Notes under the pieces: model-generated
The model's input: only the letters and a program-made list of their open reading frames with translations
What the model was told of the DNA's origin: nothing
Databases searched by the model: none
In this document: in pieces, positions 14,356 to 16,318 of the stretch
Layout of the letters: every line of letters begins with the position of its first letter
How positions within the stretch are numbered: position 1 is the first letter of the stretch
Translations under genes and position numbers: made by a program
Source: Aphelenchoides besseyi
Taxonomy: Eukaryota; Nematoda; Chromadorea; Rhabditida; Aphelenchoididae
Assembly: GCA_024699855.1 (NCBI GenBank)
Contig: JAMPIQ010000002.1
Location: 13,764,001 to 13,828,000, forward strand
Length of the DNA stretch: 64,000 nucleotides
Reading direction: 5' to 3'

Positions 14356-16318
14356 TTAGTTTTCGCGGATGGCCTTCAGTTTGTTAGCTTCGGCTGAACG
14401 ACGGGAAGGGTTTTGAGCGCGTGGTTGAGCAGGCGAACGTTTCGGCATCTTGAATGGTTTACCGTGGAGAGTTAACTGTTCGACCTCAGAACCAATATCA
14501 TAAACCAAGTTCATTTCGTCGGCCCAGACGATTGGTTGATCCGCTGAAGGCTCTTTGTCGCTTGCCTTATCCAACTCGTGCTCCTGAAGACATTTAGATA
14601 TCAGTCATTTTCTCATGTCTTACCATCACGACCGGTGGAGCTAGCTCCATCTTCAACGGACCCATGTACGTGAACTTTTCAGGCGGAATCCAATCCGGCT
14701 CCGAGCCCTCTGGTCCCGGCGGTGGTAAACCAGGAACGACTTTGCCACGCAAATTATGAGCTGTCTTCTTTTGATCGAGGGTCTTTTGCTGTAGTCCCCC
14801 CCCCCTCGCGCCCCTTTTCTTCGCAAAAGGCGAACACTTTGACGAACGTCAAGATATTTTAACCGGTTGTGTTTTTTATTTGTTTTAATTTTAGTTTTCA
14901 AAATGGAGCAACTTCGTAATTGGACGTTGAAAAACGTGTACGAAGCGATTAGTAAACCAGATGAGCAGTTCTTGGAATTCTTGGGCGAACTCAACGTAAT
15001 GAAATGGAACGCGAAATGTCCGAGAGACGAAAGACATAAGATGCAAATGCGAATGGCGCGTCGAGCACGAGATCGGCGATGACGAAGATGACGAAAATGA
15101 TGGCGATGCTGTGGAACGCGGCATACGATTGCGCGAGGACGTTATAGATTCAAATTAAATACAATTGTTATTGTTGAAAAATAAACTTGTTGTTAACTTA
15201 AAAAGAAGAACTGGCTACAGCAAAAGGTGCAACTGAGGGGGGGAGACTACAGCAAAAGACCCTTGATCGACTTTAGTTTCTGCTTTCTTTGCTTGTTCAG
15301 CTTGATAGTCGGCAATGCGTTTTGCATTACATTGAGCAGCTTCCGCTTCTAAATACCTATAAAATGGTTGATCCTGAATCACAAACCTTCGCGCTTCTGT
15401 TGCTTTTTGTTTCGTCGATACAAAAAGTAGCACAAACCAAAGAAAGCAGAGATGACGATTAAAACACCGATCACCCCTAATCCAATGTACAATGCCAATA
15501 ACCAGTTTGTCCTGAAGATCTGGTTATTGGGATTTAATTGATTGGATCCTCACTTCTCCTCCTTTTCTGCGGTTGAACCGATTGGAACTGCAGTGGACGT
15601 ACTCGACGAAACTACAGTGGTTGTGGTGCTCAAAAGTTGGGTGATCGCTCGTGCGGCAATATCCTGGGCCTAGAATAAAGTCTTAACAACAACTGGTTTA
15701 AAACTTACTTTAATAGCAACCGAAAAATTTTCGATTTCACCTTGAGCAATGGAGAAATAGGCGACAGTTGATAAATGGTTGATGCTAGAAGATTCAATTG
15801 GAACATTGTCACAAACGACCGTATTGTCGCCCGTTTGAAGCTTTCCGTCGGCGGTCAACTGCAACTTGAAGCTTCCAGACTCCGCTTTGTACGAACCTAG
15901 AAGCTAAGGACTAAAGGAATAGACAAATTACTCACGATAACTCAAGACGTATTTGCCATTATCCTTAACCGATGTGACATTCAGAAAGCAATTGCGATCT
16001 CCCAATTGCGTGTCGTACCTGAAAGTCAATCAATTTCTAATGGAAACTCAGCGGTAACTACTTCGTGTGTTCGGTAACGTCGGCCGAGAAAAAGAAGTCC
16101 AACGTTCTATTTTCAGCCCACGAAACTCCATAAGCATGCGATTGACAGCCATCGATTTTCCTGCATTGAAACAAAGGTATTCGTATCAAATTTGTAAAAG
16201 CCTACATTTCATCATTGCCTATTTTGGTCTCAACACAAGCCGCCGCCGTTCCATCAACCACAACAACGTTGCCAATCCAAACGCCGAACATCAACGCGAA
16301 CAGAAATCCGGAGCTCAT
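14356..16318 (-). CDS. Single-pass type I membrane protein, unrecognised family; one intron formed by a transposon
   Basis: Nine exons on the minus strand: 16318-16206, 16160-16062, 16018-15936, 15896-15709, 15669-15554, 15511-15387, 15348-15251, 14788-14624, 14583-14356. They total 1215 nt (404 aa) in frame. It opens with a signal peptide (MSSGFLFALMFGVWIGNVVVV). The extracellular part (to about residue 200) has several Cys and N-glycosylation sites (ENRT, LNVT). A Thr/Ser stalk leads to a membrane segment near residues 203-227 (LLALYIGLGVIGVLIVISAF) and a basic RRNKKQQKRE stop-transfer. The cytosolic tail is Ala/Lys-rich, then Pro-rich (GLPPPGPEGSEPDWIPPEKF). I do not recognise the family. 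The seventh intron (14789-15250, 462 nt) lies wholly inside the transposon at 14779-15262; the other introns are 38-45 nt. Confidence 0.75.
14771..14778. repeat. 8-bp target-site duplication, left copy
   Basis: TTGATCGA directly abuts the left inverted repeat of the element at 14779-15262 and is identical to 15263-15270. Confidence 0.8.
14779..15262. mobile_element. Intron-forming DNA transposon with TIRs, non-autonomous, Merlin-like
   Basis: A 484-bp element. Left end GGGTCTTTTGCTGTAGTC; the right end is its exact reverse complement (18 bp), and similarity continues through a C-run next to each end. It is flanked by a perfect 8-bp duplication, TTGATCGA. An 8-bp duplication with a terminal repeat starting GG fits the Merlin superfamily; hAT and P elements also give 8 bp but have other end sequences. 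The element interrupts a coding exon of the minus-strand membrane-protein gene. Within each terminal repeat, GCTGTAGTC supplies a GT donor in one orientation and CTACAG an acceptor in the other. An extra CTACAGCAAAAG sits at about 15216. The interior holds a short frame resembling a transposase N-terminus. Confidence 0.75.
14903..15082 (+). pseudogene. Transposase N-terminal remnant inside the element (Merlin/ISXO2-like zinc-binding region)
   Basis: ATG at 14903 opens a 59-codon frame (MEQLRNWTLKNVYEAISKPD..., then FLEFLGELNVMKWNAKCPRD, then HKMQMRMARRARDRR). A 'FLxxxGxLxxxxxCPx...HxMxMxxxxRxRD' pattern is typical of the N-terminal Zn-binding region of Merlin/IS1016-like transposases. The adjoining frame continues with CEWRVEHE and an acidic tail to a TAA near 15159, as if one frameshift or deletion separates the two parts. 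No DDE catalytic core is present. The frame runs antisense to the host gene's intron. A family match by search is needed to firm this up. Confidence 0.4.
15263..15270. repeat. 8-bp target-site duplication, right copy
   Basis: TTGATCGA follows the right inverted repeat and matches 14771-14778 exactly. Confidence 0.8.

Follow-up and report, generated by a model that had tools for sequence, protein, structure and literature searches.

Insertions of the DNA transposon Tc1 are reportedly spliced from the pre-mRNA of Caenorhabditis (C.) elegans, as is said in the title of work by Rushforth and Anderson from 1996. Introners are recognized as families in which four or more similar introns occupy unrelated positions and, among animals and land plants, are named for two groups only, both of them animals (excerpt of Gozashti et al. 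2022, PMC9860276). In one Aureococcus introner, both splice sites belong to the element itself, and the mRNA gains 12 bp (same excerpt). Elements of the Merlin superfamily are characterized by 5'-GG ends, duplications of 8-9 bp and terminal inverted repeats (TIRs) of 24-462 bp (excerpt of PMC8101967), and the DNA transposons listed as widespread in nematodes include Merlin (excerpt of PMC11118728). Among titles and the openings of abstracts, with subscription journals mostly outside the coverage, neither a Merlin introner nor a nematode introner was found.

The window analyzed here, i.e., the whole stretch of 64,000 nucleotides from the nematode Aphelenchoides (A.) besseyi, harbors a Merlin-type element that lies in a coding exon of a gene on the minus strand. 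A preliminary description proposed that this element is a DNA transposon that created an intron. The recent insertion of a transposon into an exon and the arithmetic of the reading frame stood up to the analysis; the creation of an intron was not supported, as the proposed splice sites are weak and the gene models do not use them. The locus is most probably explained by an ordinary disruptive insertion of a very young non-autonomous Merlin element, which would not be cleanly removed as an intron.

The element and its family in the genome

The element is a 484-bp, non-autonomous deletion derivative of full-length copies (14779-15262, plus strand). A search of the window for its terminal repeat, GGGTCTTTTGCTGTAGTC, with up to three mismatches allowed, returned two matches, at 14779-14796 on the plus strand and at 15245-15262 on the minus strand, where shuffled sequences give an expectation of 0.01. 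The repeats are exact over 18 bp and extend, with one mismatch, through a tract of C that follows the left repeat and a tract of G that stands before the right repeat on the plus strand. A perfect 8-bp target-site duplication, TTGATCGA, flanks the element at 14771-14778 and 15263-15270. Inverted ends of 18 bp and a perfect 8-bp duplication in a minus-strand gene had been claimed, and both were re-found exactly, to the coordinate. Between the repeats, a 59-codon ORF (14903-15082, plus strand) constitutes a remnant of the transposase N-terminus; comparison with the ORFs of the full-length copies showed that its residues 1-55 are those of their N-terminal ORF except at residue 37. The 59-residue remnant had no match in Pfam.

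With the window element as query, 77 matching stretches were found in the A. besseyi genome, and the 18-bp repeat has 39 exact occurrences in 47.4 Mb (reversed control, 0). Twenty elements were delimited, 11 long (1415-1496 bp) and nine short (483-553 bp). A perfect 8-bp duplication flanks 15 of these (10 of the 11 long and five of the nine short elements), and in the remaining five the duplications, as delimited, have one to six mismatches. GGGTC is found at both ends of 19 of the 20 elements, the copy at C2:15499584 having GGGTT at one end. All 11 full-length copies carry similar ORFs of an IS1595-type transposase, the gene for which appears to be split, perhaps by an intron; the short copies retain both ends without most of this gene. 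In the one full-length copy tested, the C-terminal ORF matched PF12762 (DDE_Tnp_IS1595, E 1.2e-17); for the N-terminal ORF, Pfam returned nothing. The motifs IDET, SDQW and IESFW were spotted by eye in ORF fragments of the full-length copies. Because GG ends and 8-bp duplications are combined with the DDE_Tnp_IS1595 match, the family is assigned to the Merlin superfamily (IS1016/IS1595-related).

The Pfam run comprised 10 proteins, of which the transposase and a PIF1 helicase were named, the other eight giving no match or one below threshold. A search of the PDB with the transposase returned four chains, all named SAKe, which we take to be designed proteins. Related repeat ends are seen at C1:7320200-7322400, C3:5318796-5318880, C1:7386963 and C1:7628641, and some such ends flank, facing outward, a common segment (GTTGGTTGGACAAACG or a similar one), which would fit a second type of element with the same ends.

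The window copy and the copy at C2:14082495, located 304 kb away, differ by no substitutions and no indels over 484 bp, and because of this identity the window copy is judged to be very young. It differs from the copy at C2:393056 by one indel and from that at C2:15499584 by three substitutions and one indel.

The interrupted gene

The host gene spans 14356-16318 on the minus strand and is annotated, over its first five exons only, as M3Y96_00882600. The element lies inside coding exon 7 (14624-15348), which is 233 nt long without the insertion. An empty site, for which the preliminary description had pointed to related strains or species, is present in two paralogues of the same genome, L069 and L070 on C1, where the exon is uninterrupted and the identity is 93.3% and 94.2%, respectively. 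For the first of these paralogues, the aligned annotated protein, P0002, reads AKVDQKKTAHNL at the empty site. The identical copy and the empty site bear out the claim that a DNA transposon recently inserted into a coding exon. The gene belongs to a multi-copy A. besseyi family and, as judged by eye, its product would be a type I membrane protein with a cytoplasmic tail. All seven protein matches of the gene are from A. besseyi, in agreement with the nematode host that had been proposed.

With the proposed sites in use, the exons are found at 16318-16206, 16160-16062 and 16018-15936 (exons 1-3), at 15896-15709, 15669-15554 and 15511-15387 (exons 4-6), and at 15348-15251, 14788-14624 and 14583-14356 (exons 7-9). 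With the proposed intron removed, these nine exons total 1215 nt including the stop, i.e., 404 aa, of which the decapeptide GSFAQKTLDQ is added by the insertion. The reading frame stays open before and after the element and across all nine exons. The earlier arithmetic of nine exons, 1215 nt and ten added codons is correct, and a GT at 15250 and an AG ending at 14789 exist.

The annotated M3Y96_00882600 is a 200-aa protein, in which 200 of 200 residues match the first five exons. The model breaks off with EKEEK at the end of exon 5, upstream of the interrupted exon 7, at an in-frame TGA in the donor GTGAGG, which is spliced in the paralogue's protein. Both the hydrophobic anchor and the tail are missing from the annotated gene, a gap that may reflect no more than a predictor without an acceptable path across the element. 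Left unspliced, the host frame stops after GSFAVVSPPQLHLLL, and skipping of the interrupted exon breaks the frame, its 233 nt without the insert being no multiple of three. A codon-usage score for the insertion sites, derived from 46 long window ORFs (including one that extends into the element), separated exons poorly and was left unused.

The preferred explanation, that of an ordinary disruptive insertion, involves full-length copies in the same genome, which presumably mobilized the short element in trans. In one member of a multi-copy membrane-protein family, the element would have inserted, with duplication of 8 bp, into the exon that encodes the tail. Because the unspliced frame stops, because an AATAAA hexamer inside the element in the host sense (14875-14880, minus strand) is a possible premature polyadenylation signal, and because nonsense-mediated decay is possible, the insertion would mostly truncate or destabilize the host product. 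This loss may be tolerated because paralogues exist, and the element would not be removed cleanly as an intron. Compatible with this explanation, yet unlikely to account for the locus by itself, is a host gene that is dispensable or decaying, or an insertion that is heterozygous or private to the strain, with no lasting effect on gene structure. Membership of a multi-copy family and an annotated model without a tail are consistent with a dispensable host; that all nine exons are open argues against it.

Insertions elsewhere in the genome

Six of the 20 elements were placed, three in exons of host-gene families (the window copy, C1:14876135 and C2:14082495) and three elsewhere. All three exon-hit genes belong to multi-copy families. 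At C1:14876135, a full-length element resides in a DEAD-box gene, at RQT-LFFSATF. This gene is a partial copy, a more complete one being found in the cluster at C1:14990129-14993140. The annotated protein P0012 ends ...NRQTLF-GSFAVVSPPQLHLLL, and 355 of its 355 residues are those of the unspliced reading of the DEAD-box copy up to the stop. Nine partial DEAD-box helicase copies surround the more complete one within C1:14808765-15713415, and a further copy is found on C6. At C2:14082495, the element resides in a large A. besseyi family, of which 136 stretches match P0011 and one piece, when tested, had no Pfam match; the site is empty in the relatives P0011 and P0013. Here, the upstream duplication exceeds the downstream one by two bases. 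The P0011-like family is scattered, for example over C2:14082175-14092367 and C3:3677305-4256748.

A short Merlin copy at C1:11634133-11634658 lies within a PIF1-helicase ORF, which is possibly another mobile element, i.e., the insertion would be nested. The element at C2:2403621 lies within a 290-aa ORF, and that at C1:11024590 in an apparently ordinary 41-nt intron with a score of 16.0, on a scale where reference introns scored 9.4-23.6 and the 95th percentile of 400 random positions was 13.2. The element at C1:12062395 may likewise be located inside an ordinary intron (score 10.6 vs a 90th percentile of 10.5) and is counted with the 14 unassigned sites. A composite query made of pieces from six of the 20 sites, two of them in two frames, was scored against 7,998 candidates with proteins of about 272-864 aa; among the best 120 of 195 matches, it returned A. 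besseyi proteins for two of the six sites (C1:14876135 and C2:14082495).

A genome-wide look for pairs of element ends inside introns, suggested earlier as a check, showed no set of introns built on this element among the six of 20 copies placed. Four shorter paired-end copies, of 279, 79, 77 and 75 bp, were found as well. The 77-bp copy (C2:4221327-4221403), which would give an in-frame intron of 55 nt, was rejected, as the neighbouring frame looks by eye like a Tc1-type transposase and no host gene is seen. The 79-bp copy (C1:7322247-7322325), considered as an established intron, was also rejected and sits among related repeats. At the 75-bp copy (C3:5935444-5935518), which has a perfect duplication, no gene was found. 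Paired-end patterns with gaps of 20-50 nt occur at two loci, and those with gaps of 51-81 nt at none in the genome.

Proposed splice sites and known systems

Splice sites were scored using a weight matrix built from 21 distinct introns (22 aligned) of 38-49 nt, taken from three genes, two of which are paralogous. Several cryptic sites inside the element score higher than the proposed ones, i.e., a donor at 15126 (4.2) and acceptors at 15247 (5.2) and 14990 (4.0). Partial and imprecise splicing through such sites, yielding a minority of near-normal messages, would have a precedent in the Tc1 insertions of C. elegans, to go by the title of that work, but is an unlikely outcome here. Read in the host sense (minus strand), the left repeat and an inner repeat of it resemble acceptors of fair quality at 15247 and 15215 (CTTTTGCTGTAG, 5.2 and 4.4 bits), so that exons upstream could be trapped by the element. 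A search of the window for spliced-leader motifs of nematodes and tunicates gave no match.

The preliminary description had the spliceosome remove 15250-14789 (minus strand, 462 nt) through a donor, GCT/GTAGTC, and an acceptor, GACTACAG/CAA, in the terminal repeats, leaving a working intron and an in-frame insert of 30 nt. This proposal draws on a frame and length arithmetic that is exact and on the 22 retained nucleotides of the window copy, which contain no stop in any of the three frames. Splicing at the same positions would also be in frame at C1:14876135, where the DEAD-box copy carries a full-length element, and the Aureococcus introner, with both splice sites in the element and 12 bp added to the mRNA, provides a precedent (excerpt of PMC9860276). 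In addition, CTACAG ends intron 1 of the DEAD-box gene and GTAGTT is the donor of the host's own intron 2, so that close relatives of both proposed hexamers are functional in this genome.

These points are outweighed by the properties of the sites. The proposed donor, with -0.35 bits, falls at the 48th percentile among the window's 7,870 GT dinucleotides; the 21 reference donors range from -0.4 to 10.3 in leave-one-out scoring, one being as low as the proposed donor. The proposed acceptor, GGGACTACAG/CAA, also at -0.35 bits, falls short of every one of the 21 reference acceptors (0.8-11.5), although it ranks at the 72nd percentile among 6,164 AG, and has a run of G where a T-rich stretch would stand. 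When the 20 elements are read in either orientation (40 readings), 37 readings give the TIR donor -0.4 and the other three -2.2, 1.8 and 3.0; the TIR acceptor ranges from -2.4 to 1.5. In the predicted RNA fold (-150.5 kcal/mol, z -7.9), both sites are paired within a long terminal stem, which is expected to hide them. The proposed intron is 462 nt long, compared to 38-49 nt for the 21 reference introns and 38-45 nt for the seven ordinary introns of the host gene. The copy at C2:14082495, although identical in sequence, would be spliced out of frame, and the 22-nt scar, GGGTCTTTTGCTCAAAAGACCC, has no copy in the genome at up to two mismatches. Of 20,000 randomly generated 18-nt repeats with a similar composition, 41% contain both GT and CT and 20% permit a frame-neutral pair together with an 8-bp duplication; because one in five random repeats allows this, frame neutrality is no strong sign of an evolved introner. 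The database models found for two host genes (window and DEAD-box) do not use the proposed sites. These models may be ab initio predictions and constitute weak evidence against splicing, and that of the window gene, as a model, lends an introner no support. With a background-like donor, an acceptor below every reference and one of three exon insertions out of frame, removal of the element as a working intron is improbable. The same holds for the wider claim that the TIRs carry both splice sites in both orientations and that this is, to our knowledge, the first nematode and the first Merlin introner, caught at its start.

As it stands, the locus shows that a Merlin family was active very recently in a plant-parasitic nematode, and it provides, for the question of splicing, three young insertions in exons whose relatives have the empty site. 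As for Tc1 in C. elegans, a DNA transposon is located in a nematode exon; in contrast to that work, which concerned RNA, the Merlin case is described here at the level of DNA. With the Merlin superfamily, the window family shares GG ends, 8-bp duplications and the DDE_Tnp_IS1595 domain, while the window copy differs in being without most of the transposase and in having a TIR that is exact over 18 bp with an imperfect extension through the C/G tract, compared to 24-462 bp (excerpt of PMC8101967). From introners as described in the excerpt of Gozashti et al. 2022 (PMC9860276), the window element differs in its weak candidate sites, read from the genomic sequence. It resembles them as a recent element with TIRs and a target-site duplication in an exon and with possible internal splice sites and, if spliced, would represent the birth of an intron from a cut-and-paste transposon in an animal that belongs to neither of the two introner groups reported there.
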